NCBI RefSeq assembly: GCF_003610555.1 | Contig: NZ_RAPQ01000009.1 | Span: 620,001-684,000 of the forward strand | Length of the DNA stretch: 64,000 nucleotides | Direction: 5' to 3' | Origin: Marinifilum flexuosum | Lineage (GTDB): Bacteria > Bacteroidota > Bacteroidia > Bacteroidales > Marinifilaceae | Shown: piece by piece, positions 11,785-48,353 of the stretch | How positions within the stretch are numbered: the stretch's first letter is position 1 | Layout: each line of letters begins with the position of its first letter | Notes under the pieces: generated by a model | The model's input: the letters and a program-made list of their open reading frames with translations, nothing else | Told to the model about the DNA's origin: nothing | Database searches by the model: none | Translations under genes and position numbers: made by a program

Positions 11785-12099
11785 TTACTTACCCATTCCT
11801 TATGGATATAAAAGCATTCATTTCTCCTACTTTCTCATTCATTCTTCTTACTTTCCCACTCATTCTTTCTACTTACACATTACTTCTTCTTACATTTTCG
11901 TTCATTCCTTCTACTTTCACAGCACTTACTGTTGCATATCGATTCCTTTTTGTTTTTATATCGGTCGTTTCATCGACATAAACATTCCCATTGCTTACTT
12001 ACACATTACTTCTTTCTACTTTCTCGTTCCTTCTTCTTACTTACACATTCCCTTTTGCAACTATCCGATTACTTTTAGCTACTTATAAATATCTATGCC
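11785..12099. repeat. Array A: 15 degenerate tandem units of exactly 21 bp
   Basis: Reading from 11785 in steps of 21 gives 15 units with no slip. Many begin TTACTTAC or CTACTTTC and continue with CATTCATTC-like pyrimidine-rich sequence, e.g. units at 11827, 11848, 11869, 11995, 12016 and 12037. Alternate units tend to start T and C in turn, hinting at a 42-bp higher order. Three central units (11932-11994) are strongly diverged but keep the phase. The array fills the space between the 3' ends of two convergent genes. Confidence 0.8.
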
Positions 12100-12134
12100 A
12101 AAACCCCTCACACCAATCGCCAACATTAAAGAAC

Positions 12135-12683
12135 TTATTGCTCTATAGACTCTATCAAGTTTAGATCCTTTTTAAGTTTATCTTTTTGCTCCGCAGACAA
12201 CGCCTCATTATTAACATACTGCAGAATTAACTCTTTTAAATAATGATCCTTGATATCAAATAGAAAGCCATAATCTTGTCCACCGGCATATCCATATTCT
12301 TCAAACTCCTGCTTCACAGAATTTCTAACATGCTTGATGTATTGTTCAGCATTCATTTGAATTTTTCCTTTTTTACTATTTAAATCATCATCGAAATAGA
12401 AAATAGAATCAATAATATTTAAATACATTATTGGATCAATACAATAGGTTCGATATTGATCGGCATTCCAACTTGGCTGTTCATTAATTGTGGTGTAAAG
12501 ATTATTTGCAATTCGAATATTAATATTGGCATGTTTTTCATACTCTATGATCATAGAATCTAAATCACTATGCGATAACAAACTTATCTGACTACTTTGC
12601 ACCTGATCACGTTTAAGTTTATTGTTTTTGCAGGCAACTAGTAAAACTATTACACTACAATACATCCATTTATAAGATTTCAT
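12135..12683 (-). CDS. Lipoprotein of unknown function
   Basis: A 182-residue protein with a lipoprotein signal peptide: hydrophobic stretch then LLVAC with the lipidated cysteine at C18. The mature part is charged and mostly helical, with no motif I recognise. It stands alone between array A and the citC terminator. Confidence 0.7.
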   Translation of the reverse strand: MKSYKWMYCSVIVLLVACKNNKLKRDQVQSSQISLLSHSDLDSMIIEYEKHANINIRIANNLYTTINEQPSWNADQYRTYCIDPIMYLNIIDSIFYFDDDLNSKKGKIQMNAEQYIKHVRNSVKQEFEEYGYAGGQDYGFLFDIKDHYLKELILQYVNNEALSAEQKDKLKKDLNLIESIEQ

Positions 12684-12743
12684 TTAGTTTGATTATTATT
12701 CTGAAAATAAGAATGTTTGATGTAATATAAATATTCTGCACAT

Positions 12744-12777
12744 AAAAAAAGCCTGGTATTTTAAATAATACCAAGCT
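12744..12777 (-). terminator. Terminator of the citrate lyase operon
   Basis: Minus-strand stem AAGCTTGGTATT/AATACCAGGCTT (one bulge) followed by seven T, about 35 bp beyond the citC stop. Confidence 0.85.
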
Positions 12778-12811
12778 TCCATATTTTTAATACTCTCTAA
12801 AAGAGCTCTTA

Positions 12812-13885
12812 TTAATGCCTTGAGATTGTATTTTTAATTTTTGTTCTTACTTCTAATGACTCATCGGAAAGCAAGAAGTTTTTTGTAGAATCAGGAAGGA
12901 ATTCCAGAACATCCTCCAATCTATCTTCTCGTATTGCCTGTCTAACTTTCGAAGCTGAAATATAATTATCATCTCCTCCGCAAGTAATTCTTGGTATTTC
13001 CAATAAATCAACACCGTTGGTCGGAAGGTATTTTATCATCGCTTCGTTGTAAGCTGCAGTTACCGGAGAGTACATCTCGGTTCCTACATAACGCTTGTTG
13101 ATATTCAAAACCGGAACAATATAACTTAAGAAAGTAATTACATCCAACTCGGCTTGTTTTGCAGAAATATCACATTCTTTTTCTTGTTTTAAGAAATAAC
13201 ATGGAAAAATGGTTCCAGAAACCACGTAATTCCCACCTTTTACCATCACAAGATTATCTACATGTCCTAATTCTTCCTTTATTAACCTCCATCTAATATC
13301 GAAAGTAAAAGAAGATCGATCTTCCTCAACAACAAAAAGATAGACCAATCTATTCTCTTTGCATGCTTTCTCGATTAAATACTTGTGTCCATTGGTAAAA
13401 GGATTACAGTTCACAACAACAGCTGCAATATCGCCAACGCTCACATCCTTTTTTACCGAACGCAAATAATCCTGGTAAGTTTTGATGTTTTCGTAACCAA
13501 ATTCTAAAACAGAAAACAATGGTTCTGCAGTTGCAATCTCAGTAAAACCAAGTCCTTTAAAAACCTCAAGGTTTCTAGGCTTTGTGTATACAAAAATATG
13601 CTTGTGTTCTTGAATTACAATATCGATAAGATGAGTTACAATTTGTGCAAAAGCAGCTCCTTCTCTAAATTTTGGCGCTACAGCAACATACTTTAAAACT
13701 CTCCCCTTATACGATCCTGTTCCAATAACCTCATCGTTTAGATTATACAAAATCATAGTATAATCAACATCATGCTTATTGAAATCAAATCCCAATGGTT
13801 CCAAAAACTCAGAAACCAGTTTTATATCGAAGGGGTTCCTCAGATCCAAAGATTCTTCTCTGTAATCAGTATTTTCAACTCCCAT
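12812..13885 (-). CDS. citC: [Citrate (pro-3S)-lyase] ligase
   Basis: A 357-residue protein with the two CitC domains: an N-terminal GNAT-like acetyltransferase domain (about 40-130) and a C-terminal nucleotidyltransferase domain with the adenylylation motif NPFTNGH at 161-167 and ISASKVRQAIRE near residue 325. It acetylates the prosthetic group thiol of the citrate lyase acyl carrier protein using ATP and acetate, activating the enzyme. It is the last gene of the operon, 176 bp after citXG. Confidence 0.93.
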   Translation of the reverse strand: MGVENTDYREESLDLRNPFDIKLVSEFLEPLGFDFNKHDVDYTMILYNLNDEVIGTGSYKGRVLKYVAVAPKFREGAAFAQIVTHLIDIVIQEHKHIFVYTKPRNLEVFKGLGFTEIATAEPLFSVLEFGYENIKTYQDYLRSVKKDVSVGDIAAVVVNCNPFTNGHKYLIEKACKENRLVYLFVVEEDRSSFTFDIRWRLIKEELGHVDNLVMVKGGNYVVSGTIFPCYFLKQEKECDISAKQAELDVITFLSYIVPVLNINKRYVGTEMYSPVTAAYNEAMIKYLPTNGVDLLEIPRITCGGDDNYISASKVRQAIREDRLEDVLEFLPDSTKNFLLSDESLEVRTKIKNTISRH

Positions 13886-14061
13886 ATTTTCCGTTAGTTT
13901 AGTTTTGTTAGGTGTGTGTGATAGTTTTTAAATCAACAGTCAATATTATTGGATTTTGTCAAATATCAATGCTTTTATAATATGTTTCAGAGATATAAGA
14001 AGAATCCAAAATCATGATATATGTTATTTGTTTTATCTGAATGTTTTGTTATAAATGAAAA

Positions 14062-15453
14062 TTAGGCATGTTGTTTATTTGCGGTAAAGATAAAATATGA
14101 AACCGCTAACAAATCAGCCGAACCTCCCGGAGATATGTGATTCTTTTCACAGTAATGAATTAAATCCTTGTATAAAATTTCGAATTTTTCATTCTCGAAA
14201 TTCAAAAATGCTTCGTTGGCTTTTTGCTTTAATCCATCTAATACCTCAACACCTTTTCGATACAGAATATTACTATCGTCGTTATTGGCAATCAAAGACA
14301 ACAAGGCGTGGGTTAAAGATTTGTGCAGGATTTTATCATCGGTGCGCTTCTTGTTCTGCAAATGGTATTCCAAAACCGGAATTGCATGCTGAAATACACT
14401 TGGTAAACCAGCCTGTATTTCACCACGAATGCCTTGTCCTTTATTTCCATATTTCTCGAAACAAACTTCACCATGCGTTAGGCTCCCATTATACAATTTC
14501 CTGCCCAACTCTCGCTCTACCAAATTTCCATTTAAATCTTTAATCAGATCAACAAAAGCTTGATAGGAAAAACTTCTTTTTGCGATTAGATACGCACTCA
14601 CAAACAGAGAAAATCCCAATAAAAAAATTGCTCCTTTGTGTGTATTTATTCCATTGGTTTCACGAAACATATCTTCCTCCATGAGCAAACCAATTCGGCG
14701 CAATTCAGGAAGAGCTTTTTTTAAATCATCATTTGTATAGGAAAAACCATATTCAGCAATCTCCTTAAAGTAAACCGACAATACCGATGCGGAATCAATA
14801 AAGGTAGAAAAGTCCATATCGTCATGCGAACCATTGGAATTCCGATCCACCAAACCTGGTTTAGGTGACAATGCCACTTCGTGCAATAAAGATTTCAAAG
14901 CATTCGATGCTAATTTTTTGCAAACCTCATCTTTCCTTATCTCGGATAGATATTGATCGATATCATCATTAATCTTCTGACGAATATCAGCATAAGAATG
15001 ACTCTGCTCTCGCATACATACCAAAGCAGGCTTTTCATTGCAGTAATAACACAACTTTGCCTTACCCGAAGATACCGGGCCTCCTTCAGCATTGGTTATG
15101 TCCACATCCAGCAAACGACCCAAAGAATGTGTTTCCTCGAACTTTTCAGTGATTTGTTTTATTTCATCAATTGAATAGGTATTTTCAAGAAGAGGAACCA
15201 AGTAGAAATCGCCAGCTGCATCAACAGCACAGTACTCTTGCTTTGAATCAATCAATACCCTATGCGATAACAGATGTCGCTTTAGTTCTGTCAACACCTG
15301 CCTAAAACAAGAATGAATTCTATCATCAGACTTTGGAAACCCTGGAATATTCATGTTCAAGCTTAAAGATGCCTGTCCAGACTCTGAAATTCCTTTTCGC
15401 AAAACAGATCTTTGATCCCTTGCCTTTAATATTTTCCCTAACACATCACTCAT
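14062..15453 (-). CDS. citXG: CitX-CitG fusion: prosthetic-group transferase and synthase
   Basis: A 463-residue fusion. Residues 1 to about 175 match CitX (apo-citrate lyase phosphoribosyl-dephospho-CoA transferase), with the signature SLSLNMNIPGFPKSD. Residues about 185-463 match CitG (triphosphoribosyl-dephospho-CoA synthase), with EVALSPKPGLVDRNSNGSH and DMDFSTFIDSA. CitG makes the precursor of the prosthetic group from dephospho-CoA and ATP, and CitX loads it on CitD. The fused form is known from some enterobacteria and Bacteroidota. It lies between citF and citC in the operon. Confidence 0.92.
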   Translation of the reverse strand: MSDVLGKILKARDQRSVLRKGISESGQASLSLNMNIPGFPKSDDRIHSCFRQVLTELKRHLLSHRVLIDSKQEYCAVDAAGDFYLVPLLENTYSIDEIKQITEKFEETHSLGRLLDVDITNAEGGPVSSGKAKLCYYCNEKPALVCMREQSHSYADIRQKINDDIDQYLSEIRKDEVCKKLASNALKSLLHEVALSPKPGLVDRNSNGSHDDMDFSTFIDSASVLSVYFKEIAEYGFSYTNDDLKKALPELRRIGLLMEEDMFRETNGINTHKGAIFLLGFSLFVSAYLIAKRSFSYQAFVDLIKDLNGNLVERELGRKLYNGSLTHGEVCFEKYGNKGQGIRGEIQAGLPSVFQHAIPVLEYHLQNKKRTDDKILHKSLTHALLSLIANNDDSNILYRKGVEVLDGLKQKANEAFLNFENEKFEILYKDLIHYCEKNHISPGGSADLLAVSYFIFTANKQHA

Positions 15454-15484
15454 TCCTGTAAATCTCTCTATATCTTATAAAATT

Positions 15485-15516
15485 ACACCCTAAAAGTAAA
15501 ATTACAATTAGGGTGT
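15485..15516 (-). promoter_or_regulatory. Intra-operon hairpin between citF and citXG
   Basis: A perfect stem ACACCCTAA/TTAGGGTGT with a 14-base loop. On the minus strand it is followed by AATTTTATAAG rather than a clean T run, so it is a weak attenuator or an RNA processing/stability hairpin. It would lower expression of the accessory genes relative to the structural subunits (inference). Confidence 0.5.
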
Positions 15517-15540
15517 ACTTTTCTTTATATCAACTATCTG

Positions 15541-17100
15541 TTAAGATAGATTTTCAACATTACGAATTACGTCAATAATGGTACCATCGCGATATTCAAC
15601 CAAGGCAACAATTTTTTCGCCCAATTGTTTTTCCGCCGGAACACCAGTCATTGTATCAACTTCTTTCTTCAAATCATTAATATCGACAACTTTTACACCT
15701 GCTTTCTTCAATGCAGCTGCAAGATTTGGCTTAGAAGGATTTACACAAACTCCACGTTCTGTAACAATCACATCAACACTTTCACCCGGAGTAACAATTG
15801 TATGAACACGATCTTTCACGATTGGCAAACGACCACGGAAAGAAGGACAAACAATCACACTTAGGTTAGCACCTGAAGCTGTATCAGAGTGACCTCCTGA
15901 AGCTCCACGAATCTCACCCGATGAACCAGTGATTACATTTACATTAAAATCAACATCTACTTCCAAAGCACCTAGCACAACGACATCCAATTTGTTGGTC
16001 ATTGCTCCACAGTTATTTGGATTTGCATATTGATCACAAGTAATTTCGATATGCTGTGGATTATTCAATACAGAAGTACTTACTGCAGCATCGAAAGACT
16101 GCACATCAAAAATTGCCTGGAACAATCCTTCGTTAAGCATGTCAACACCGTAAGAAGTAACACCACCAATCATGAAACTACCTTTAATGTCTTTGCGTTT
16201 CATATCCTCGCGAAGGAATTTAGCTACAGCCAAAGAAGCACCACCCGCTCCTACCTGGAACGACATACCATCTTTGAACAAGCCAGAATGCTCGATAACT
16301 GTTGCAGCAATACGAGCAATACGTAAATCCATTGGAGATTTTGTGATACGAGTAGTACCTGATGCAATCTTGGTAGCATCACCAATGCTGTCAACCTTTA
16401 CAATATGATCAACAAAATGCTGACGAATTGAACCTGGAACACATGGATAATCTACAAGGTTATCTGTTACAATAATTACATTTTTAGAGTAACGAGCATC
16501 AATATCAGCGTATCCCATAGAGCCAAAAGCAGATGGTCCGTGAGCTCCGGTAGCATTACCTTCCTCATCGGCAGCAGAAGCAGCCAAAACAGACAAATCT
16601 GGTTTGATACGTCCGGTCAAGATATCTCTAACACGACCACCATGAGAGTGAATAATTGCAGGATGCTTTAATTTACCCATTGAGATAATTTCACCCAAAC
16701 GACCACGAATACCTGAAGAGAAAATTCTGGTAATCATTCCTTTCTCAACATATGGAACCAACCCATCGTGTGCAGATGTTAATGAAGAAGAAGCCAAAGT
16801 AATGTCTTTGATTCCCATTTCATCTAAAATTTCGATTGTTTGCATCAAAACTCCATCTCCTCCACGAAGGTGGTGATGAAATGTAACAGTCATTCCATCG
16901 AAAGGATTACATTTTTGGATCGCTTCTTTTAAATCGCCACACAATTTTGAAGTATGAGCTTTTTTTGCTTTTAATGTTCGAACAATATTAGTTGATGGAA
17001 TCTCATCACCAATAATGCTTTCCCATACGCCCTGGAAAGGTTTTAACTCACCAAGACCTTCTATATATTCAGGAATTTCAACTCCTAATGCATTCTTCAT
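15541..17100 (-). CDS. citF: Citrate lyase alpha subunit (citrate CoA-transferase)
   Basis: A 519-residue CitF of normal length. It swaps the acetyl group on the acyl carrier protein for citrate, giving citryl-ACP. Recognisable family stretches are FDGMTVTFHHHLRGGDGVL, HSHGGRVRDI, GAHGPSAFGSMGYAD and GASGGHSDTASGANLS, plus a C-terminal VTERGVCVNP block. It lies 43 bp downstream of citE on the minus strand. Confidence 0.95.
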   Translation of the reverse strand: MKNALGVEIPEYIEGLGELKPFQGVWESIIGDEIPSTNIVRTLKAKKAHTSKLCGDLKEAIQKCNPFDGMTVTFHHHLRGGDGVLMQTIEILDEMGIKDITLASSSLTSAHDGLVPYVEKGMITRIFSSGIRGRLGEIISMGKLKHPAIIHSHGGRVRDILTGRIKPDLSVLAASAADEEGNATGAHGPSAFGSMGYADIDARYSKNVIIVTDNLVDYPCVPGSIRQHFVDHIVKVDSIGDATKIASGTTRITKSPMDLRIARIAATVIEHSGLFKDGMSFQVGAGGASLAVAKFLREDMKRKDIKGSFMIGGVTSYGVDMLNEGLFQAIFDVQSFDAAVSTSVLNNPQHIEITCDQYANPNNCGAMTNKLDVVVLGALEVDVDFNVNVITGSSGEIRGASGGHSDTASGANLSVIVCPSFRGRLPIVKDRVHTIVTPGESVDVIVTERGVCVNPSKPNLAAALKKAGVKVVDINDLKKEVDTMTGVPAEKQLGEKIVALVEYRDGTIIDVIRNVENLS

Positions 17101-17143
17101 TTTGTTTCTTTATTAGTATCAATTTTGTAAACAGGAATAACTG

Positions 17144-18043
17144 TTAACTTGCAACCGACTCTTCGATTTCTTTTAAATCGATATTGGCATATTCAAGAAC
17201 GGTAATTGCTCTCTGAACAACAGGAGCATCTACCATTTTTCCGTCAATTGCAAATACTCCAATACCAGCGTTTTTATTTCGAATAAATTCTGAATAAACA
17301 CGGTAAGCTTTTCTTACCTCATTTTCGGTTGGGTTAAACACTTCGTGTACACCATCTACCTGACGAGGATTAATCAATGCTTTTCCAGCGAAACCAATCT
17401 TTTTAATGTACTCCGTTTCTTCACGAAGACCTTCCTCATCGTTAACATCAGCAAATACGGTATCCAAAACATCTAAACCATGTGCTTTACCTGCCATTAC
17501 AATACGCTTACGAGCATAATCAATACCTACTCCATCAGGAGTTTTTACGATACCCATATCCGCAGTTAAATCCTGACCTCCAATTGTAATTGCATCAATT
17601 CGTGGATCAGCACCTGCAATTTCGTATACATTTGCAACACCTTTAGCTGTTTCGATCATTACATGGATCGTCATGGTTGGCTTCTTAATTCCATGTTCTT
17701 TTTCGATTCTGCGAACCTCTTTCATGAAATCTTTCACATCCTGAACAGACTCAGTTTTTGGGAATCTGATATTATCAGGTTGCAATGGCACGATTTCTTC
17801 TAAGTCTGCCAATCCAAAAGGAGTATGCATGTTGTTTACACGCACGCAAACTTCTGTATCGTAAAATTCAACGGTTTGTAACATGTTACGAACCAAGATT
17901 CTTGCAGCATCTTTTTGGTTCAATGCCACGGCATCTTCCAAATCCAACAATACTGCATCACAACCATAAACTCCGGCTTGTTGAATCATTGCAGGATTAT
18001 TTCCCGGAATGTACAACATTGATCTTCTTTTCTTTCTAGCCAT
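17144..18043 (-). CDS. citE: Citrate lyase beta subunit (citryl-CoA/ACP lyase)
   Basis: A 299-residue HpcH/HpaI-fold lyase that cleaves citryl-ACP to oxaloacetate and acetyl-ACP. Visible motifs are RRSMLYIPGNNP at the start, LLDLEDAV (metal-binding Glu/Asp), RFPKTES, VMIETAKGV, ITIGGQDLTADM and ALINPRQVDGVH. Its ATG overlaps the citD stop by one base (TAATG), so translation is probably coupled. Confidence 0.95.
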   Translation of the reverse strand: MARKKRRSMLYIPGNNPAMIQQAGVYGCDAVLLDLEDAVALNQKDAARILVRNMLQTVEFYDTEVCVRVNNMHTPFGLADLEEIVPLQPDNIRFPKTESVQDVKDFMKEVRRIEKEHGIKKPTMTIHVMIETAKGVANVYEIAGADPRIDAITIGGQDLTADMGIVKTPDGVGIDYARKRIVMAGKAHGLDVLDTVFADVNDEEGLREETEYIKKIGFAGKALINPRQVDGVHEVFNPTENEVRKAYRVYSEFIRNKNAGIGVFAIDGKMVDAPVVQRAITVLEYANIDLKEIEESVAS

Positions 18044-18330
18044 TACATTGTACCCTCCTGAATACCTAAAGAACGTTTAACAGCAGCTTCAACTCTAGCC
18101 TTAATTGTTGGCGTTAGAGCTCCCTTATCTTTTGCAATCAGGTGTACATTCTGGATATCCAAATCATCCAAAACCTGATTAATTGTATTTTTGATATCAT
18201 CTTCGAACTGCAACATCACAGTAGATGAGATATCAATTTGGCGACCGGCTTCCTCTGATACAGGTTCGATCAAGACCATGATATCGCTTGATTCGAAAGT
18301 TCCGGCTTGCGCTTTAAACTTAGGTGTCAT
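18043..18330 (-). CDS. citD: Citrate lyase acyl carrier protein (gamma subunit)
   Basis: A 95-residue acyl carrier subunit, first gene of the operon. The prosthetic-group serine is S14 in AGTFESSDIMVLI, at the same position as in Klebsiella CitD. It carries the 2'-(5''-phosphoribosyl)-3'-dephospho-CoA thioester arm between CitF and CitE. Its stop overlaps the citE start. The upstream region is a 1-kb gene-free stretch. The nearest possible -7 element (minus strand AAAATTTG near 18375) is imperfect. Confidence 0.93.
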   Translation of the reverse strand: MTPKFKAQAGTFESSDIMVLIEPVSEEAGRQIDISSTVMLQFEDDIKNTINQVLDDLDIQNVHLIAKDKGALTPTIKARVEAAVKRSLGIQEGTM

Positions 18331-18649
18331 TGTTAATGATATTAGTTTAATTATTCCGTAAGAATTATAATAATTGATTTTGCAAATTTTAATGTCTTTC
18401 GATAGAAATCAAAGCACTTTTAAAGATTTTTGTAGTTAATTACCTACTGTTATAAAACACAATCAGGAAACGATTGCATATCAGCCTGTTATTAACAGCC
18501 TATTCTTTGTAAGTATTTACATTTCTTACTATTCGCATAATTAAACAGGTAATTATTTTTTCGATTAAACATGAAAAATCATTATTTATCCTTCATAAAT
18601 GTATGTTACTTATCAATTTAAGCTGGAAATATTATACATCCGAACAAAA

Positions 18650-18764
18650 CAACAAAGGCTTCGCGAATGCGAAGCCTTAATTGTTAGTGATTAGTTAGTG
18701 GTTAGATTTTACTTGTCTAACAACAAGAAAATCAATTGTGTGATTAGTAAAGTTACAAATGGTA
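18650..18764 (-). ncRNA. Candidate small RNA or leader with terminator hairpin
   Basis: On the minus strand a promoter-like TACCATTTG (18764-18756, spacing one base longer than consensus) is followed by a small hairpin (CTTGT/ACAAG), the A/C-rich string ATCTAACCACTAAC, and a strong stem AAGGCTTCGC/GCGAAGCCTT (18655-18678) ending TTTGTTGTTTTG. The plus-strand string TTAGTGGTTAGA (18695-18706) recurs exactly at 30395-30406 and 30573-30584. It ends more than 300 bp before citD, so an independent transcript is more likely than a cit leader. Orientation is uncertain. Confidence 0.4.
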
Positions 18765-19145
18765 ATTGTGTTTACTTTTTAAATACGCCACAATATAAGT
18801 TTAATTTTTCTATTTACGCAAACGTTTTCTGAAAAATTATTCACTGCATTTTTTATTTTTATTTATTCTTTAACTCAAAAAATTAGTTGTCAGTTTTTAA
18901 GTATCTATTAAAGAAATATTTCCGTTAATACTTCTAATTCTAACATTTTCAAAAAAAACTGCACATCATATTTTTCATCTGTTTATAATTTTCTTGTTAA
19001 GGTCAGATGGAAGCCGCAAGATCAAAATAATCATGTCGTGTGTTTAATCATTCTCGTTTCATTCAATCCATAAAATTTAATTGTGGATTAATTCTTTTAC
19101 CATGTCATTAATCCACAATTAAGCCAAAAATTAAGAGGCTCAAAC

Positions 19146-19290: not shown

Positions 19291-19293
19291 AAA

Positions 19294-19333: not shown

Positions 19334-19353
19334 ATTGACAATTATATTTTTAT

Positions 19354-35943: not shown

Positions 35944-36262
35944 TGAGTTATGGCTTTTGCTTTTTGAGTACCAACTTTTAACTTCTGAGTAATCTTTTTT
36001 CCAATTTGAGTTAGGATTTTACCTTTCTGAGTTTAATCTTTCCTAATATGAGTTAACTCAGACACCAATTTTGGTAACTCCGATAGGTATCTTGGCTACT
36101 CAGACGGGGTAACAGCTTACTCAAATGGGTATTTTAGCTACTCAGAAGGGGTATTTGTTAACTCAGACGGGTATTGGGGCTACTCAAAAGGGTATTTTGC
36201 TTACTCCGAAGGGGAATTGAGCTACTCAGATGCTATTTTCTTAACTCCGATCGGTAAATACT
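35944..36262. repeat. Array B: 21-bp units that reverse orientation at a central palindrome
   Basis: Five units begin TGAGT at 35944, 35965, 35986, 36007 and 36028. At 36049 the perfect palindrome TGAGTTAACTCA marks the switch, after which units begin with the complementary form (T/C)(A/T)ACTC at 36054, 36075, 36096, 36117, 36138, 36159, 36180, 36201 and 36222, all 21 bp apart. One base is missing before the last unit at 36242. The right half also shares GGGGTATTTT-like tails. There are about 15 units in all. Confidence 0.82.
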
Positions 36263-36361
36263 GGGCTACAGAGGATTTTAATTAACTAAATATTATACCT
36301 CTTCAATTTTTCAGAAATTAATTACAAAAAAAGAAGGATCATTCAATGCATTATATGCCAC

Positions 36362-36531
36362 GGTGCGCTGCACCTTTTTTCATAGGCAAATACTAAGGCT
36401 ATAAAGACTACGCAGCTCTGCTGCTTCAGTAGATTTAAAGTCCTAACCAATACTTTTGTCCTGAGAAAGGTGCATCGCACCGAAGTATTTATAGGATGCA
36501 ATCAATGTGATAAATCAAGGTACAGCGTACC
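36362..36531. repeat. Palindromic repeat cluster, GGTnC-N3-GnACC
   Basis: Three 13-bp palindromes: GGTGCGCTGCACC (36362), GGTGCATCGCACC (36469) and GGTACAGCGTACC (36519). The first two bound a 120-bp imperfect inverted repeat: after each comes CTTT then loosely matching arms that meet at GCAGCTCTGCTGC (36412-36424). It looks like a REP/BIME-type or MITE-like element. The third copy is a separate unit with the flank CGGTATTTAA similar to GAAGTATTTA after the second. Confidence 0.6.
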
Positions 36532-38611: not shown

Positions 38612-38614
38612 CTC

Positions 38615-38644
38615 AATTAACAATTAACAATTAACAATTAACAA
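38615..38644. repeat. Heptamer microsatellite (AATTAAC)x4
   Basis: Four perfect tandem copies of AATTAAC directly after the FKBP terminator. Copy number may vary between isolates. No promoter role evident. Confidence 0.75.
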
Positions 38645-38843
38645 TGTGTAATGAATAATGGTTTTGATTTGAATCGCCTCTCCCCCCTTCCATTCAACAC
38701 ACATACTTCGACTATGCAACTGTTGGACTTTACCCCTCGCGAGGAAGCAAAAAAACATAATAAAGTACAAAGTCGCGACAATTAAACTAATCATTACCTG
38801 GAGTGGCATTCGTTTCACTCATTCACCCTGGATTACAAAGATA

Positions 38844-38892: not shown

Positions 38893-38972
38893 TTTCTACT
38901 TTTCCACCTTTCTACTTTTCCACTTTTCTACTTTTCCACTTTTCTACCATTCTACTTTTCCACCTTTCAAGT
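38893..38972. repeat. Pyrimidine-rich 8-bp tandem array
   Basis: Ten consecutive octamers alternating between TTTCTACT and TTTCCACT types, giving a 16-bp higher-order unit for most of its length. The strand bias (C/T on plus) could favour triplex or slipped structures. It lies 90 bp upstream of the BlaI operators. Confidence 0.75.
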
Positions 38973-39539: not shown

Positions 39540-39540
39540 T

Positions 39541-41637: not shown

Positions 41638-41663
41638 ACAAAAAACAATTTCGATATTATTCT

Positions 41664-41711
41664 AAAAAAGTGCTGTTATATACGATTTGCATAGTGTTAA
41701 CAGCACTTTTT
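41664..41711. terminator. Bidirectional terminator between M56 copy 1 and thioredoxin genes
   Basis: AAAAAAGTGCTGTTA pairs with TAACAGCACTTTTT across an 18-base loop. A and T runs flank both sides. Confidence 0.8.
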
Positions 41712-41734
41712 ATATCATTCCAATTGCATATATA

Positions 41735-42058
41735 TTATGCCTTTATTAAGCTCTCCAACTTATCTACCAATGCTGATTCGGGTACTACGCCAACCGATTT
41801 ATCCAGAATTTTGGAATTCTTTACAAAAAGTAATGCAGGAATACTACCAATTTGATACTTGGTTCTTAAATCGGGAAACTTATGCACATCTACCTTGTGA
41901 AACTCAACCCTTCCTTCGTAATCTCCTGCTAACTTATCTACAATTGGCATTATTGCCTGGCATGGAGGACAAGTTTCGGCGTAAAAATCTATTAATATCG
42001 CATGATCCTTTTTGAGTAAATTCTCTAATTCCTTTGCATTTTCTATTGCTTTCATCAT
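41735..42058 (-). CDS. Thioredoxin with CPPC active site
   Basis: A 107-residue cytoplasmic thioredoxin (no signal peptide). The active site reads FYAETCPPCQAIMP (C30, C33), differing from WCGPC by loss of Trp and by Pro-Pro between the cysteines, which usually shifts redox potential. The cis-proline segment is IGSIPALLFVKN. It probably reduces disulfides, with a potential unlike housekeeping TrxA. Monocistronic. Confidence 0.9.
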   Translation of the reverse strand: MMKAIENAKELENLLKKDHAILIDFYAETCPPCQAIMPIVDKLAGDYEGRVEFHKVDVHKFPDLRTKYQIGSIPALLFVKNSKILDKSVGVVPESALVDKLESLIKA

Positions 42059-42225
42059 TTCAATCTTAAATGTTACTAATCCTATAAGTCTGTGTACAAA
42101 TATGCTAAAACTTTACGCTTCGTTCATTGTTAATTATTCCCGAAGGCTTGCCAATTATTCCCTTTCGCCTAATTTGATCCTTAAAATCTCTTTCTATCTT
42201 TAGCTAATTCTTAAAATTAACAGAA

Positions 42226-42789
42226 ATGGAAAAAATAAGATGCGAGTGGGCAGGTAACGATCCACTATACTGCGATTATCACGATAATGAGTGGGGTGTG
42301 CCACTTCATGATGATCAGATGTTATTCGAGTTTTTGATTTTGGAAGGTGCACAGGCAGGTTTAAGTTGGATTACGGTACTTCGAAAACGAGAAAACTATC
42401 GCAAGGCTTTTGATAATTTCGATCCGAATATTGTGGCCAATTACGATCAAGGAAAAGTGGATGAATTGCTTCAAAATGAAGGCATCATCCGGAATAAACT
42501 GAAAATAAATTCGGCCATTAAAAATGCCAAGGCTTTTCTTAAAGTTCAAGCAGAGTTCGGTAGTTTCGACAAATACATTTGGAGCTTTACAGGTGGTAAA
42601 ACCATTAAAAATGCATGGAAAAACCTATCTGAAGTTCCTGCTCTTACCGATGAAGCAACTGCTATGAGCAAAGATTTAAAAAAGCGAGGTTTCAATTTTG
42701 TTGGACCAACCATTTGCTATGCTTTTATGCAAGCAACAGGCATGGTTAATGATCACACAACAGACTGCTTTAGATACAATGCGAAATAA
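42226..42789 (+). CDS. tag: DNA-3-methyladenine glycosylase I
   Basis: A 187-residue base-excision repair enzyme of the normal Tag length. Zinc ligands match E. coli Tag: C6 (MEKIRCEWAG), H19 (YCDYHDNEWGVP), H177 and C181 (DHTTDCF). FEFLILEGAQAGLSWITVLRKRE holds the catalytic glutamate and helix-hairpin region. It removes 3-methyladenine from alkylated DNA. A possible promoter TTTG-N18-TATCTTTA lies just upstream (about 42173-42202). Confidence 0.95.
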   Translation: MEKIRCEWAGNDPLYCDYHDNEWGVPLHDDQMLFEFLILEGAQAGLSWITVLRKRENYRKAFDNFDPNIVANYDQGKVDELLQNEGIIRNKLKINSAIKNAKAFLKVQAEFGSFDKYIWSFTGGKTIKNAWKNLSEVPALTDEATAMSKDLKKRGFNFVGPTICYAFMQATGMVNDHTTDCFRYNAK

Positions 42790-42791
42790 AA

Positions 42792-42817
42792 AATGCCTTT
42801 GCTTATACAAAGGCATT
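42792..42817. terminator. Bidirectional terminator between tag and M56 copy 2
   Basis: AATGCCTTTG/CAAAGGCATT perfect stem with a six-base loop between convergent genes. Confidence 0.85.
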
Positions 42818-42855
42818 CATTGCTGAATTAAAGATTCAAACTTAAGTTTGATATG

Positions 42856-44847
42856 CTATTCACTCTTCACCTTTTCTATTTGGATTGAAGCATCATTGCC
42901 CTTCCCTAATTTAAAGTTGATTGGAACTGTATAGATAACATTAACAGGTTTGCCATCTTGTTTTCCCGCTTCCCATTGAGGCATTGAGTTCACAACTCGA
43001 ATTGCCTCTTTGTCCAATGAAGGATCAACACCTCTTACAATTTTAGGATCACTCACCTTTCCATCCTTATTCACAATAAAAGAAACGAATACTCTTCCCT
43101 GAATTCCATTATCCTGAGCCACTTTAGGGTAAACGAGAGTTCTTGCAAGAAACTTTTGAATCTCTAAATGACCTCCCGGAAACTTAGGCATATTATCAAC
43201 CATATTATAAGCTTTCTTGCCATTGATGAAGACAATATTATCCTTTTTAGTAACTGCTACTTTCTCAACGCCACCTTTGTCATTAGTACCAAATCTAACA
43301 GGCAAAGTATAAGCTACATTCACCTTTTTACCATTTTGTTTACCTGGAATCCAATTTGGCATTTCTTCTATTACTCGTAATGCTTCTTTATCTATAAGAG
43401 GATGTACACCTCGTATTACTTTTACATCCTTTATACTTCCACTCTTTGATACAATAAATCTTACAAAAACAACTCCTTTTATTCCTTTATCAATGGCTTC
43501 TTTAGGATATTTAATGGCTTTGGCAATATGTTCTAGCTTGGCTTTATTACCTCCTGGAAACTGAGGCATATCTTCAACCACCACAAAAATCTCATTCTCA
43601 TCAAACTTATTCTTTTTTACTTTTTCATTAGAACTCCAATCATTCCCTTCAGAAGGTAAAACCTCTCCTTTTTGAGATTTCAATTTAATTTTTAAAAAGT
43701 AATTGTTCTCTTTATTGCCATTTAAAATAAAATCTTCAACAGCCATTTTTCTGGTCTGGAAACCAATAAAAGATATTCTGATATTGGCATCTTTGGCTAC
43801 CTCAAGTTCAAACTTACCATCCGAATCACTTACAGTTCCAACTGCGCTATTCTCAACCAATATCGCAGCACCTGCAGTAGGTTTATTATTTTCTGCCAAA
43901 ATTAAACCTGATATTTTAACCTTTTCGCTATTTTGAATTTCCACGATTTCAACCTCTTGAGCATGTACTTTAATAGCTTTCATATTAAAAACCAATACAG
44001 CAGCTACAACCGGAATCATGAACAGTAATTTATAGCGCCTTATTTTTGGACCTTTTTCTTTTGACATCATAATCATTCTTTTTTTGTTTATGGAGTGATT
44101 AAAGTTGTTGGCTAAACCAACCACTTCTGCTCCCATTAATTGGTTAATTAAAATTGCCTGATACTGTCCAATGCCGAAACCGCGCGCTATTACCCCGTCA
44201 TCAGCCAATAATTCATGCGTTTGTTTTATTGCGATTTGAAAAAGCCATACAAATGGATTAAACCAAAATACTATGCTTAATATTTCCACCAAAAGCAGAT
44301 CGATCCAGTGCTTTTGAAGTGCATGAACTTTTTCGTGTATAAATATATTTCTCAACTCTTCATTTTCGAACTCTCCCCTGTTGATCACAACATACCCAAA
44401 GAAGCTAAAAGCAGGTATTTTCTCATCAAGGAGTATTACTTTACAGTTATCCTTCTCTACAAACTCCTTCCCTACAATCATACTCCATATCTGCCAAACC
44501 TTAATGCCGCTTCTTATCAACAGTACCAATGAAACCATTAAATAAATTCCCATTAAAAGCACAGGAATACTGTAAAACGTTTTATTATCTGACATTACCT
44601 CAGGAATTGATCCTGCTATCCAATCACCAACAGATAAATCACTTGAAACATTTACTTGTGATGCTTCAACAAGAACTGTATATGGTATTTTTACGAGAGG
44701 CAGAAAAACAGCCAGCACAATACTCATCATTAGAAACCACCTAATTTCGGCAAAAAACCTTTCGTTTCTTAAAAACAGGAAATACAAGACATAAAATGCT
44801 GCCAAAATTCCCGAGGACTGTATTAAATAATAGAAGAATTCATTCAT
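42856..44847 (-). CDS. BlaR1-type M56 metallopeptidase sensor with one CarboxypepD_reg and two TonB-C domains
   Basis: A 663-residue paralogue of the protein at 39541. HEKVH is again at 171-175, followed by the helix KHWIDLLLVEILSIVFWFNPF. After the final helix (about 275-290) come one CarboxypepD_reg-like domain (VKISGLILAENNKPTAGAAI) and two TonB-C domains, each with the pattern FPGG, then KYPKEAIDKGIKGVVFVRFIV or VYPKVAQDNGIQGRVFVSFIV, then SMPQWEAGKQDGKPVNV. The family couples TonB-like folds to M56 proteases in Bacteroidota; the signal sensed is unknown. It starts 2 bp after the blaI copy 2 stop. Confidence 0.88.
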   Translation of the reverse strand: MNEFFYYLIQSSGILAAFYVLYFLFLRNERFFAEIRWFLMMSIVLAVFLPLVKIPYTVLVEASQVNVSSDLSVGDWIAGSIPEVMSDNKTFYSIPVLLMGIYLMVSLVLLIRSGIKVWQIWSMIVGKEFVEKDNCKVILLDEKIPAFSFFGYVVINRGEFENEELRNIFIHEKVHALQKHWIDLLLVEILSIVFWFNPFVWLFQIAIKQTHELLADDGVIARGFGIGQYQAILINQLMGAEVVGLANNFNHSINKKRMIMMSKEKGPKIRRYKLLFMIPVVAAVLVFNMKAIKVHAQEVEIVEIQNSEKVKISGLILAENNKPTAGAAILVENSAVGTVSDSDGKFELEVAKDANIRISFIGFQTRKMAVEDFILNGNKENNYFLKIKLKSQKGEVLPSEGNDWSSNEKVKKNKFDENEIFVVVEDMPQFPGGNKAKLEHIAKAIKYPKEAIDKGIKGVVFVRFIVSKSGSIKDVKVIRGVHPLIDKEALRVIEEMPNWIPGKQNGKKVNVAYTLPVRFGTNDKGGVEKVAVTKKDNIVFINGKKAYNMVDNMPKFPGGHLEIQKFLARTLVYPKVAQDNGIQGRVFVSFIVNKDGKVSDPKIVRGVDPSLDKEAIRVVNSMPQWEAGKQDGKPVNVIYTVPINFKLGKGNDASIQIEKVKSE

Positions 44848-44849
44848 AT

Positions 44850-45221
44850 CTATTTCTCCTTCTCAATTTGTGCTTTTGCAATCTTTATCATTTCTTCCAA
44901 CTCCTGAATGCTTAGTTTATTATCCTTTGCAAAAAAGGATGCCATTCGGGAAAATGAGCCATTAAAATAGTTTTTCACCAAAGCCCCTGCTTTAAAACCT
45001 GAATAATCTTCTTTCGAAATTTTAACCGCGAACAAATGTGACTTTCCCGCAGGGATTTTATCTACAAAGCCCTTCTTCTCCAAGGCATTCATCACTGTTG
45101 CAACAGTTGTATATGCTGGCTTTGGATCAGGAAAGTTAGAAACTACTTCCCTAACATTGGCTTCTTTTAACTCCCACAATATCTGCATCACTTGTTCTTC
45201 AGCTTTGGTCAACTCTTTCAT
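44850..45221 (-). CDS. BlaI/MecI/CopY family repressor, copy 2
   Basis: A 123-residue BlaI-type winged-helix repressor: MKELTKAEEQVMQILWELKE, YTTVATVMNALEKKGFVDKI. About half of its residues match copy 1 by eye, including the C-terminal NYFNGSFSRMASFFAKDNKLS. It forms a two-gene unit with the M56 gene downstream and has its own set of operators. Confidence 0.92.
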   Translation of the reverse strand: MKELTKAEEQVMQILWELKEANVREVVSNFPDPKPAYTTVATVMNALEKKGFVDKIPAGKSHLFAVKISKEDYSGFKAGALVKNYFNGSFSRMASFFAKDNKLSIQELEEMIKIAKAQIEKEK

Positions 45222-45246
45222 TTTAACATTTACTTTTAGATTAATC

Positions 45247-45304
45247 TACTACAAACTTAGTACTAAATTTTTAGTAGACAAATTTATTTACTAAAAACTT
45301 AGTA
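45247..45304 (-). promoter_or_regulatory. Three BlaI-type operators upstream of blaI copy 2
   Basis: TACTA-N6-TAGTA occurs exactly at 45247-45262, 45261-45276 and 45289-45304. The first two overlap by two bases. Centres are 14 and 28 bp apart. The consensus is identical to the operators of copy 1. They also lie upstream of the divergent plus-strand gene at 45377, which may therefore be co-regulated. Confidence 0.82.
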
Positions 45305-45376
45305 GATAAATTTATTTTTAAACTTCAAGTGTTGATAAATGCAAGCTATTTTGCTAACTATGCAAAAAAATTGAGC

Positions 45377-45838
45377 ATGGAAACCTTTGAATTATCTAAA
45401 GAATCATACACCCTATGGGACCGAATTAGAAAAGAATTGTCACTCTTGATTCTACTAGTGGCTATACTTCTATTCTTTGTAGGATTTAAGTTTGTATACT
45501 TCACAGCTATAATTGTAATGTATTCACTTTTATTATTGCTCAAACGCAATAGAATTGTTACATCCATATCTTTTGATGACCAACAACAAGAATTGCATAT
45601 AAATTATTACTATTTCATTTTCGTTAAAGGAAAAGAAAGAATTTCCTACTCCAAGCTAAATTATAAATTGAGTATGAAACGGTTTGGTTTTGGCGCTGCA
45701 ACCCAAACTCTAGAAATATTTAAAGGGAAAATTCTATCTGCTGAACTCAGAAAAGATGGAAAATGGAGTTGGCCCGAAGAAAAAACAAGTGCCATCTGCG
45801 ATAAAGTGTCAACAATTCAGAATTCAAAACAGGATTAA
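45377..45838 (+). CDS. Membrane-anchored protein of unknown function
   Basis: A 153-residue protein with two adjacent hydrophobic helices near 20-60 (LSLLILLVAILLFFVGFKF and VYFTAIIVMYSLLLLL), followed by a basic beta-rich cytoplasmic domain (ISFDDQQQELHINYYYFIF). This resembles small PH-like membrane proteins. The ATG at 45377 is preferred; the frame is open back to a GTG at 45329. It is divergent from blaI copy 2 and shares its operator region. Confidence 0.65.
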   Translation: METFELSKESYTLWDRIRKELSLLILLVAILLFFVGFKFVYFTAIIVMYSLLLLLKRNRIVTSISFDDQQQELHINYYYFIFVKGKERISYSKLNYKLSMKRFGFGAATQTLEIFKGKILSAELRKDGKWSWPEEKTSAICDKVSTIQNSKQD

Positions 45839-45891
45839 TATCTTTTAAGGTATAATTCTTGATAGATCCTTCGATAGAATCTCAATTTATT

Positions 45892-45899
45892 TATCTTTG
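45892..45899 (+). promoter_or_regulatory. Promoter -7 element of the outer-membrane protein gene
   Basis: TATCTTTG matches TAnnTTTG exactly. A transcript would start near 45906, leaving a leader of about 50 nt to the TTG at 45957 or about 11 nt to a TTG at 45917 in another frame. Confidence 0.55.
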
Positions 45900-45956
45900 A
45901 TAATAGAGTATAACCATTGAAACTAAAATACTATTCGAAGTTCAGCAACATATTGT

Positions 45957-47882
45957 TTGTTAATAGTAATACTTATAAGCTATTTTTCTTCTGCAAATGC
46001 ACAGCAGAATATTCAAAAAGACAGCCTTGTAAACCCCATTAAAAATATAGATTTACCAGATAGTACAATAATTATTTCACGCGATACTATCGTATTTTTA
46101 ATGGATACCGTAAACGAACGAAAAAAGGATTCCCATAAAAGCGGAAGTAAATTCTACCATGCAATACAACGTGGAGCTTATAAACGCAAATTTACAAAAG
46201 AACTTTACAAATTATTTTTTGTAGCTCCCGATAAAATTTCGCCTACCGATACGATAAAAACAGAGCGCAGTGAAACCGCCTTTGTTATTTATCAGGGAAA
46301 AACAATCAGAAATATTGAGGTAAGAGTTCTTGAGCCTTTCGGTTCTAGCCTGCACGATACCACTAAAGTTGCCAATAGCTGGATTGAAAGAGCTGGAAAC
46401 AACCTACATCATACCAGTAGACGTGGACATTTAAGAAAAATGTTACATCTAAACGAAGGAGATAAACTGGATGCTTATACACTTGCTGACAATGAAAGGT
46501 TAATTAGACAACTAAACTATATTAAAGATGCATTTTTTAGGGTTATACCTGTAAAAGGCTCAAATAAGTTTGTTGATTTGCAACTATGGGTAAAAGATCA
46601 GTTTTCCTGGGGGATTGACGTAGATCTTGGTTCAAACTTATCTACTGAATTCGAAATTTACAGCCGAAACCTATACGGCATTGGCCATGAGTTCAGCAAC
46701 AAATTTCATTACGATAGAGATGAAGATCAAAAGTTTGGTTATTCAGGGAGATACAAGGTTCGCAATATCAAAAGAAGCTTTATTGACGCCAGTTTAATTT
46801 ACGAAAACACATATGAAAAATCAGTGATTGGAATTGATTTTGAAAGAGATTTTAATACCTATAACACCAAAAGGGCAGGTGGGTTTAGCTTATCGAAAAC
46901 AATGCGATCGGATAAAATCATGGACGATGATCCGATTCGGAACGAAATCCCTCTGGATTTTAATTATGGGAATCTTTGGTATGGAACTTCTATAAAGCTA
47001 GACTCTAAAAATTTATTTGCCAGACGAAAGATGTTTTTTACCGGAAGGATATCCAGTAGAAAGTTTTTTGAAAGGCCAGAAACGGGTCCTGATCTAAATC
47101 AATTTTTCCACAATAACATCCTGTACCTTGGAGGAATCAGTATCAGCCAAACACAATATTACAAAAGTAACCTGATCTATAATTTTGGTAGAACCGAGGA
47201 TATTCCTTATGGATTTTTGGCGCAAATGAATTTTGGTTACGAAGATCGAGAGTACTCACACCGATTGTATTTGGGTTTTGATTTTCAAAAAGCAAGCTAT
47301 ATTCGTAAAACAAGAAGTTACTTTTTTAATCGCGTAGCCATTGGTGGATTTTTCAATTCAAAACGCTTTGAACAGGGAACCTTAATCGCCCAATCGAAAT
47401 TCTTCAGTCGGATACGAAAATTAGGTGCATTAAGGTTCCGTAATTTTGGAGATTTAAAATACACTTTGGGTATCCGAAGATTTCCTGAAGAATTTATCAC
47501 GATTAATAACAAACATGGTATTCGTGGATTTAAAAGCGAAGAGGTTATCGGAAAGCAAAAACTAAGTTTAAATTTGGAAAGCGTAGCCTTTACACCTTAC
47601 ATGCTTGGCGGTTTTAAATTTGCCTTTTATACTTTTGGCGATGTTGGAATTATAGGCAGTAATCAGAAACACATTTTTAAAGGTGATTATTACTACGGAT
47701 TAGGTTTTGGTGTGCGATTACACAACGAAAACCTTGTATTCAAAACCATACAGTTACGTTTGGCATTTTATCCAAAGGCTCCAAGCGATTTTCAATCTGT
47801 AGCATTCCGTTTATCAGGTGAAGAAAGGCCTAGATTCAACGACTTTAAGGTAGGACAACCTGATGTTGTTCCATATGAATAA
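45957..47882 (+). CDS. BamA/TamA-like outer-membrane beta-barrel protein
   Basis: A 641-residue open frame. After a hydrophobic signal ending SSANAQQ, residues about 95-215 look like a POTRA-type domain (GKTIRNIEVRVLEPFG, then LADNERLIRQLNYIKDAFFRV) and the rest alternates aromatic beta strands as in a 16-strand Omp85 barrel (SYFFNRVAIGGFF, KQKLSLNLESVAFTPY). Probably surface assembly or lipid-related transport. No ATG precedes the frame: the start must be TTG at 45957, giving a signal peptide without its usual basic n-region. The adjacent frame from 45917 reads LKLKYYSKFSNILFV, which would supply exactly that, so a one-base frameshift or sequencing error is possible. Confidence 0.78.
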   Translation: MLIVILISYFSSANAQQNIQKDSLVNPIKNIDLPDSTIIISRDTIVFLMDTVNERKKDSHKSGSKFYHAIQRGAYKRKFTKELYKLFFVAPDKISPTDTIKTERSETAFVIYQGKTIRNIEVRVLEPFGSSLHDTTKVANSWIERAGNNLHHTSRRGHLRKMLHLNEGDKLDAYTLADNERLIRQLNYIKDAFFRVIPVKGSNKFVDLQLWVKDQFSWGIDVDLGSNLSTEFEIYSRNLYGIGHEFSNKFHYDRDEDQKFGYSGRYKVRNIKRSFIDASLIYENTYEKSVIGIDFERDFNTYNTKRAGGFSLSKTMRSDKIMDDDPIRNEIPLDFNYGNLWYGTSIKLDSKNLFARRKMFFTGRISSRKFFERPETGPDLNQFFHNNILYLGGISISQTQYYKSNLIYNFGRTEDIPYGFLAQMNFGYEDREYSHRLYLGFDFQKASYIRKTRSYFFNRVAIGGFFNSKRFEQGTLIAQSKFFSRIRKLGALRFRNFGDLKYTLGIRRFPEEFITINNKHGIRGFKSEEVIGKQKLSLNLESVAFTPYMLGGFKFAFYTFGDVGIIGSNQKHIFKGDYYYGLGFGVRLHNENLVFKTIQLRLAFYPKAPSDFQSVAFRLSGEERPRFNDFKVGQPDVVPYE

Positions 47883-47892
47883 TTCGTTTCAA

Positions 47893-48353
47893 CATGAACT
47901 TTTCATCTTAAAAGCTGACAATTCAATGTTGATATTTAAGGTTTTAATATTATAAGCTGATTTTTTAATATCGCAAGCTGTGCTCTCAACGTTGAAAGTT
48001 GATAGTTTAATATTGTGAGCTGAAGTTGCAATGTTGATAGTTGATATTTTAATGTTGTGAGATGAAGTTTCGATGTTTTTTGTTGTGTTTTTATACAAAA
48101 AAATGATCGTTATAAATGAAAAGCCGAGCTTTCAATATAAAAACCTCAGCTGCAAATGTTGAATGCTCAGTTTTCAACATTAACAGAACAAGAAATAATG
48201 TTGGAAGCTCAGTTTTTCATGTTGATGTGTGAATGAACAACGTTAACATCATAAGTTTCAATAGGGAAAGTTCTACATTCTACATAGAGAACTCAATTTT
48301 TAATGTTAAAAGTTCAACTTTTAATAGAAATTTCAGATAACTTCAATATTCAA
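47893..48353. repeat. Array C: about 22 degenerate tandem units of 21 bp
   Basis: Units step by 21 bp from 47893: many read G(C/T)TGA-N5-TTTAATnTTGTnA or GCTCAGTTTTCAACATTAACA, e.g. at 47914, 47956, 47977, 47998, 48019, 48040, 48061, then 48123, 48144, 48165, 48207, 48291, 48312. One unit (48103) is 20 bp, after which the 21-bp step resumes. The array fills the gap between the 3' ends of the outer-membrane protein gene and the MATE gene. Confidence 0.82.

Follow-up and report, generated by a model that had tools for sequence, protein, structure and literature searches.

The window analysed here, a 64,000-nucleotide stretch of the genome of Marinifilum flexuosum (G000), contains three intergenic arrays at 11785-12099 (A), 35944-36262 (B) and 47893-48353 (C), and their presence and coordinates, as given in a preliminary description, were verified in the sequence (Table 1). 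Array A lies between convergent genes, encoding a PQ-loop protein (+ strand) and a protein without a Pfam match (- strand), and array C lies within a 488-bp gap between convergent genes. The 21-bp period reported for the arrays is present in each of them: identity at lag 21 is 0.531, 0.547 and 0.489 in A, B and C respectively, compared with 0.33, 0.27 and 0.30 after shuffling (z of 7.7, 10.9 and 8.7; 500 dinucleotide shuffles per array). Identity at lag 42 is higher still (0.590, 0.567 and 0.549), lags 63, 84 and 105 rank among the highest identities, and the seven top values of the window, taken over 200-bp windows and lags 12-60, all come from the three arrays, at a lag of either 21 or 42. 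TRF recovered the three arrays in pieces only. Their consensus sequences are indeed unrelated, forming three separate blastn families at E<1e-4. The unit orientation of array B reverses at the palindrome GAGTTAACTC in its middle, and its halves are therefore oppositely oriented and in register, with TGAGT words spaced by 21 bp five times and ACTC words eight times, followed by one final spacing of 20; the terminal part of its right half is common to most other members of the B family. In the dyad scan, array C is partly self-complementary around a mid-array axis and no such axis was detected in array A. The orientation flip of B and the partial self-complementarity of C are absent from the preliminary description.

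Table 1. Features of arrays A, B and C, in positions of the window.
Feature	Position	Strand	Description	Basis
Array A	11785..12099	.	21-bp units, 15 in number; + strand rich in pyrimidines; without dyad	
Array B, left half	35944..36049	-	TGAGT units on the + strand	
Array B, central palindrome	36050..36059	.	GAGTTAACTC; unit orientation flips, register kept	sequence, dyad scan
Array B, right half	36056..36282	+	ACTC(A/G)GA..GGGTATTT units on the + strand, then family end	
Array C, first half	47893..48081	.	AATGTTGATAGTTGA..-type units	
Array C, centre	48082..48123	.	without clear units, close to dyad axis	
Array C, second half	48124..48353	.		

A 21-bp peak confined to A, B and C, which would have counted against the preliminary description, was not found: a step of about two turns of DNA recurs in 30 arrays within the noncoding stretches of 1,264 kb, approximately a quarter of this Marinifilum genome. 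The period scan was passed by 37 stretches and by none of 1,680 shuffled segments; in 31 of the 37 the period falls at 20.5-23 or 40.5-44 bp, these representing 30 distinct arrays and, by blastn, 24 sequence families, 19 of which have a single member in the stretches examined. The step is common to many unrelated sequences, and substitutions accumulate freely among their units. With tRNA repeats excluded, the other genuine noncoding arrays number three, two of 16 bp and one of 56. The concentration of periods gives a binomial p of 4.7e-22, computed on 30 of 34 arrays with period ranges chosen post hoc; by eye, a 49.5-bp array among these is a duplicated tRNA, and the corrected count is 30 of 33. 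One 42-bp array, at 183.2k in the C1:1.0-1.2 Mb stretch, has perfect hairpins by eye; it was not counted as noncoding, as an ORF touches its window. The step is not fixed at the 21 bp of the preliminary description: its mean over the 30 arrays is 20.99 bp, and individual arrays range from 20.25 to 23 bp per step. Units of 22 and 23 bp occur in four of the 30, and such a step leaves the 10.5-bp face within several units, so the proposal that every unit presents the same face of the DNA is not borne out in the form given. Nor is phased bending: predicted curvature, computed from wedge values, does not exceed that of column-permuted arrays of equal period (mean z of 0.08, above 2 in 4 of 31), and intrinsic curvature is rejected as a common feature.

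Comparison with relatives indicates how the arrays change. In eleven ortholog comparisons, three of which are pairs of one locus, net length differences are 42, 21, 22, 21, 63 and 21 bp, or zero. Against array A, its ortholog in Marinifilum sp. D737 has a net excess of 42 bp, the copy of array B in M. breve differs by one 21-bp unit and the copy of array C in M. breve shows 93.7% identity across 540 bp, without an internal indel. In a twelfth comparison, at C1:782k, D737 lacks around half of the array, approximately 209 bp, which is no multiple of 21. Array length therefore changes almost always in whole units, as in a minisatellite or VNTR whose copy number differs between lineages, and the earlier claim that length is kept while substitution is tolerated stands for most comparisons but not for C1:782k. 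Frequent indels in the arrays of relatives were not found in the ortholog comparisons: seven collinear comparisons hold 191 substitutions and no gap other than whole units, whereas in neighbouring intergenic DNA outside the arrays the rate is 0.10 gaps per substitution, or 0.045-0.063 when homopolymers are excluded, in controls drawn from G000 against D737 and D714 only. Three comparisons involve unit turnover or a diverged edge, and in these the 24 small gaps placed by one aligner total whole units. Homopolymer runs are about half as common in the arrays as in other intergenic DNA, which lowers the indel expectation, and the G000 arrays were detected through their steady period, which itself selects against indels in the G000 lineage. 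Left out of the count were stretch L282, which had no match to its intended array, and array 697051, of which the D737 version is shorter and turned over; none of the relatives' stretches compared aligned across arrays 591131 and 609072, and in D737 the alignment of array 58661 was partial. Substitutions in array C are distributed across the whole unit and consequently no fixed contact site is visible there.

The arrays are dispensable. In seven relatives without array C the stop codons of the convergent genes lie 1-22 bp apart (G004 is uninformative, as a different gene adjoins the MATE gene at the locus compared), and the array at C1:671285 is missing from both D737 and M. fragile. The possibility that array C arrived recently, already worn, on the branch of G000 was considered and rejected, since M. 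breve also has C; in a three-gene tree M. breve branches outside the group of G000, D737, D714 and M. fragile, and given this placement an older gain followed by later loss is the simpler account. With respect to genes, the arrays occur at 3' sides or where two neighbours converge, and very seldom where they diverge: the gaps that hold them are codirectional in 19 cases, convergent in ten and divergent in one (n=30), compared with 105, 31 and 68 in the background (n=204), a depletion of divergent gaps (1/30 versus 68/204) with a Fisher p of 3.8e-4.

Taken together, these observations hint that spacing is retained more than sequence. It is tentatively suggested, with a little less than even confidence and from sequence comparison, that the arrays are architectural DNA elements, perhaps of a BIME-like kind, which lie downstream of genes and are selected for spacing while tolerating changes of sequence. 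A, B and C would then be members of a large, lineage-expanded class of intergenic minisatellites with a unit of two (or four) DNA turns. Unequal recombination or slippage, in register, would supply new units and selection would purge any indel that disturbs the register, the register being kept because a DNA-binding machine that reads spacing and tolerates sequence occupies the array. Candidate occupants are gyrase, as on BIME-2 of E. coli, or a nucleoid protein resembling HU or IHF, and the site of occupancy would be where positive supercoils accumulate from transcription. HU-like PF00216 matches number 6-10 in five Marinifilum genomes versus 1-5 in 14 others, counts in which Marinifilum is a single clade and pieces of genes are included. 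Counting against this architectural reading, no curvature, dyad or RNA fold is common to all arrays. The units of 22 and 23 bp, the half-array loss at C1:782k, the dispensability of the arrays, the spread of substitutions over the unit of C, the scarcity of homopolymers, the detection by steady period and the 24 small gaps placed by one aligner also weigh against it, as do the 0-6% indels within BrickBuilt elements (PMC4596501). The more specific form of the proposal is possible but doubtful: an element class defined by its spacing, in which a two-turn register is selected so that a sequence-tolerant wrapping or filament protein may dock downstream of genes and manage supercoiling, expanded in Marinifilum and maybe elsewhere in the Bacteroidales.

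Almost as likely as the architectural reading is that the arrays are neutral minisatellites, produced by a mutational process of this lineage that is biased towards tandem duplication on a ruler of roughly two turns, with units later gained and lost whole, by slippage or recombination, in arrays that serve no function. Arrays are gained and lost between species, blocks of units turn over within A and within a 22-bp array, and the sequence of C drifts about as much as its surroundings. The spread of 20.25-23 bp also fits a ruler better than a fixed face, and avoidance of promoters is expected of any insertion. What neutrality alone leaves unexplained is the lack of 1-2 bp indels in the collinear comparisons, none against roughly 7-14 expected by our own estimate, corrected for homopolymers and array ascertainment; moreover, no enzyme with a two-turn ruler was identified in this analysis.

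Action through RNA is unlikely. In this reading, which follows a proposal made for BrickBuilt (see below), read-through transcripts would form hairpins, either long or repeated, and several arrays do have strong predicted folds, with best-strand z of -5.2 to -6.5 for the B type, -4.05 and -5.05 for the C type and -6.4 to -7.6 for three arrays of the 41-bp type. However, A, 720011, 697051, 591141 and others have no clear folding excess, and an RNA hairpin is not common to all arrays. A best-strand z under -3 is reached in 17 of 31 array windows versus 11 of 31 controls and dyads exceed the column-permuted null in 11 of the 31, but mean z is -2.58 in the arrays and -2.08 in 31 control intergenic windows (25 shuffles each), and Rfam yields no match at gathering score in the 64,000-nt window.

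Slightly less probable again, the arrays could be minisatellite-bearing mobile elements of the BrickBuilt or MITE kind. The conserved end of B recurs at other places in G000 and in other Marinifilum genomes, C is present or absent at a single site, and C has 38-nt arms near its ends (47895-47932 and 48279-48316) that are 71% complementary, which may be the array's own dyad. Against mobility, most families are single-member (19 of 24 in the stretches examined), A and B lack inverted repeats of 12 nt or more at their two ends, and target duplications are not evident at C, the one array inspected for them, by eye. Carriage by phage or plasmid is rejected for the two combinations searched, B having no match in the phages and C none in the plasmids. 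An origin by reverse transcriptase is likewise rejected, since PF00078 (RVT_1) has no match in G000, nor in D737 or M. fragile; D714 has one match and G004 eight. Least plausible by far is that the arrays are genes, live or decayed, for proteins with heptapeptide repeats (seven codons being 21 bp). In its favour can be cited stop-free runs of 74 codons in B and 79 in C and, among 16 windows with a period of 21 or 42, three (C included) whose open frame is matched by at most 3% of shuffles; one coding 21-bp array exists at position 130461 of the C1:1.0-1.2 Mb stretch. Against it, open frames are unremarkable in the other 13 windows, periods of 20.5, 22, 23, 41 and 44 cannot hold frame, and substitutions spread evenly across codon positions at C1:782k and in C.

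Were spacing the sole target of selection, homology and motif searches would be blind to such elements, which a period scan can detect, and the approximately 30 natural arrays in this quarter of the genome could be used to probe a reader of two-turn phasing in vivo. If the arrays are neutral, they imply a mutational ruler of about 21 bp, of which no description was found in the open-access literature searched; that search also found neither the pattern in Marinifilum nor a two-turn rule for intergenic repeats. In either case, the 22-, 23- and 41-nt repeats of Porphyromonas gingivalis join a possible wider Bacteroidales pattern.

The preliminary description knew of no published element of this behaviour in the Bacteroidota, but comparable repeats have been reported there, namely the 23-nt BrickBuilt, 41-nt PgRS and 22-nt tandem repeats of P. 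gingivalis (PMC4596501). BrickBuilt, a 23-nt minisatellite within a MITE, is the closest described relative in kind. It shares with the present arrays a Bacteroidales host, an intergenic position, units of about two turns and predicted stem-loops, and strains vary at one BrickBuilt locus by 184 nt of repeats, which by our arithmetic is 8 x 23. Units within a BrickBuilt element differ by 0-11% mismatch and 0-6% indels, and BrickBuilt is a single sequence family that has a leader, a tail and terminal repeats of IS5-like type (PMC4596501), whereas here a quarter of a genome has 24 far more worn families. Its 23-nt unit also differs from the 21 bp of A, B and C; one other Marinifilum array has 23 bp and is likened to it by unit length alone. 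MITE464/PgRS, a MITE with terminal repeats and 41-nt repeats (PMC4596501), has the step of the 41-bp arrays here, again compared by length alone, and differs from A, B and C. Generic VNTRs and minisatellites likewise gain and lose tandem units whole, but a unit length concentrated at two turns over unrelated families sets the present arrays apart. Finally, BIME/REP elements, for which a role in chromosome organisation has been proposed, are similarly intergenic and 3' of genes, with a preference for convergent or unidirectional gaps, some with alternating orientation, and REPs have in common a palindrome that carries a GTAG or CGTC tag (PMC2817692, PMC3733652). BIME/REP elements are also associated with a REP-type Y1 transposase; Y1_Tnp (PF01797) matches number seven in G000, two of which are pieces at one place, and 4-6 in other Marinifilum, but also six in G018 and four in G020. 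Unlike REPs, the units described here vary between arrays, in 24 families, and dyads exceed the null in 11 of 31 windows only.

Arrays A, B and C were re-found in the sequence at the positions given in the preliminary description and their 21-bp period stands, with identities at lag 21 of 0.531, 0.547 and 0.489 respectively (z 7.7, 10.9 and 8.7; shuffle means 0.33, 0.27 and 0.30). In each, identity at lag 42 exceeds that at lag 21, and some of the highest values also fall at lags 63, 84 and 105. The units of array B reverse orientation at a palindrome with the register kept, array C is partially self-complementary around a central axis and a dyad scan of array A gave no self-complementary axis. 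Judged by mechanically called ORFs of at least 100 aa, arrays A and C each lie between convergent ORFs and array B between two minus-strand ORFs. In array A, the right part is close to Marinifilum sp. D737 and the left part is common to D737 and sp. D714, an interspecies mosaic in which entire unit blocks are replaced in register. The two short-unit arrays differ from the two-turn class. The MITE-like element has many copies in the genus, with 57 matches in a second Marinifilum genome (G004), 44 in D737 and 29 in the genome holding the window, counts that include pieces and the source locus, the query having contained the element.

Repeat arrays and neighbouring elements (window coordinates unless a contig is named)
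Feature	Coordinates	Description
MITE-like element	11069-11336	~270 bp; 24-bp terminal inverted repeats (96%)
MITE-like copy	C1:1071138-1071410	adjoins array at C1:1071.4k
Array A	11785-12099	21-bp units
Array B	35944-36282	21-bp units
Palindrome in array B	36050-36059	GAGTTAACTC
Short near-palindromes, right of array B	~36362-36530	GGTGCGCTGCACC, GGTGCATCGCACC, GGTACAGCGTACC (by eye)
Short-unit array	38614-38645	CAATTAA x 4.6, 100% matches
Short-unit array	38893-38968	TTTCTACT x 9.5
Array C	47893-48353	21-bp units

The two-turn array phenomenon is genuine and recurs through the examined quarter of the 5.17-Mb genome, in which the window occupies C2:620001-684000. A scan of 1,264 kb (the window and 1.2 Mb of other stretches; periods 10-60 bp, 300-bp windows) gave 37 noncoding calls, 31 of which have periods of two or four helical turns (20.5-23 or 40.5-44 bp) and represent 30 distinct arrays, one having been called twice, so that the 21-bp peak extends beyond A, B and C. 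Three of the remaining six are tRNA repeats (two by ARAGORN, one by eye), and their removal leaves 33 arrays: these 30, two of 16 bp built from 8-mers and one of 56 bp that is a duplicated block. The 30 fall into 24 families (blastn, E<1e-4), and none of 1,680 shuffled intergenic segments passed the threshold of 0.13 (best score 0.108). Arrays within ORFs, in a smaller sample, have periods that are all multiples of three, spread over 12-60 bp. Over the 30 arrays, with periods of 40.5-44 bp halved, the step has a mean of 20.99 bp and ranges from 20.25 to 23. In the 20.5-bp array at C2:558.66k, the word CTACAG is spaced by 20, 20, 20, 21, 20, 21, 20 and 21 bp; one-base differences occur, yet spacing remains near two turns.

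Comparison with relatives bears on the claim that substitution is tolerated and length is not. The register held in eleven comparisons. Array C and its M. breve copy are 93.7% identical across 540 bp with zero internal gaps, and the C-type array at C1:782k is gap-free over 366 bp in all pairs of the present genome, D714 and M. fragile. A single gap of exactly 21 bp separates array B from its M. breve copy, and one of 22 bp lies inside the 22-bp array at C2:603.8k relative to D714, where one alignment also places a 1-bp gap at the last, degenerate unit, beyond the bounds of the gap count. Array A is gap-free between D737 and D714 in its left part and net 42 bp longer in D737, arrays C1:720.0k and C1:697.1k differ from M. 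fragile by 21 and 63 bp, and the B-type array C1:1054k differs from D714 by net 21 bp. The claim fails in one half-array loss: in D737, C1:782k has lost about half its length across the central spacer (~209 bp between landmarks, not a multiple of 21). About 1% of sites in array B differ from M. breve, against ~9% in three regional genes, which may reflect recent exchange or, alternatively, strong constraint.

Seven collinear comparisons hold 191 substitutions and no gap other than whole units; the four others of the eleven were set aside, one because the pair is dependent and three because units had turned over or an edge had diverged. Control intergenic DNA has 76 gaps to 752 substitutions against D737 and 73 to 717 against D714, of which 34 and 45 gaps respectively lie outside homopolymers. 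Given this correction, and that runs of at least five are fewer in arrays (6.2 per kb) than in intergenic DNA (12.5 per kb), we estimate 7-14 expected non-unit gaps instead of 19, which makes zero unlikely (Poisson 9e-4 to 1e-6). In the three comparisons left out for turnover or edge (array A with D737, C1:1054k with D714 and C1:697k with M. fragile), pairwise alignment produced 24 small gaps summing to whole units; MAFFT gives one 63-bp gap and no small gaps within the array for C1:697k.

Selection on spacing is tentatively suggested as the cause of this pattern, and a neutral mutational ruler of two turns is a possibility to which we give slightly less credence. Some families show strong RNA folding and others none, array A among the latter; no Rfam family reached its gathering score within the window, and the RVT_1 domain was not found in this genome. 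Dyads exceed the column-permuted null in 11 of 31 windows, and all but one of these 11 belong to arrays with periods of 22-23 or 40.5-44 bp. The phased bending proposed earlier is not borne out, as predicted curvature does not rise above column-permuted arrays (mean z 0.08; z above 2 in 4 of 31 windows, including C and its 782k relative). A protein-coding repeat is disfavoured, substitutions being even over codon positions (9, 11, 11 in C; 13, 17, 20 in C1:782k), although open frames are unusually long in 3 of 16 windows, C included.

Relatives of array B occur in this genome at C1:98k (81% identity) and C1:1054k, as well as in D714, M. fragile and the MAG McD1.5, most with one end in common. 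Array C is related to C1:782k and to arrays in D737, D714 and M. fragile, and array A has one relative, at C1:1135k. Seven relatives lack array C, the flanking stop codons there being 1-22 bp apart as against 488 bp here. As M. breve carries array C and forms a deeper branch in a three-gene tree, an old gain with later loss is the simplest history.

Six of seven noncoding calls in 373 kb of other Marinifilum stretches are of the two- or four-turn kind, all at loci with an array in the present genome, the stretches having been picked as orthologs. In 820 kb from other genera of the family there were four calls, with periods of 41.5, 47, 57 and 32.5 bp, the last a tRNA cluster. Per 100 kb, the density is ~2.4 arrays in this genome and near 0.1 in the sampled sister genera. 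A further 73 loci, 1,132 kb of sequence from a broad set of bacteria, gave eight calls, five with two- or four-turn periods. On inspection one sits in a long open frame, and the other four (in Labilibaculum sp. OB13, two Bacteroidales MAGs and Candidatus Bacteroides merdavium) fall outside any ORF of 100 aa or longer; three of these four are crossed by some open frame, so coding is ruled out only for the 22-bp array. The preliminary description named no Bacteroidota element with such behaviour; tandem repeats of 22, 23 and 41 nt are described in P. gingivalis (PMC4596501).

Of the 30 arrays, 19 lie in codirectional gaps, 10 in convergent gaps and 1 in a divergent gap, against 105, 31 and 68 of 204 background gaps of at least 250 bp, which include those holding the arrays; divergent sites are shunned (p 3.8e-4) and convergent sites mildly over-represented (p 0.02). 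HU-like PF00216 matches number 6-10 in five Marinifilum genomes and 1-5 in 14 others. REPs are described with the same gene-context preference as the arrays (PMC3733652), E. coli gyrase is reported at the ends of genes and also downstream of terminators (PMC8084294), and BIME-2 is reported to bind gyrase (PMC2817692).
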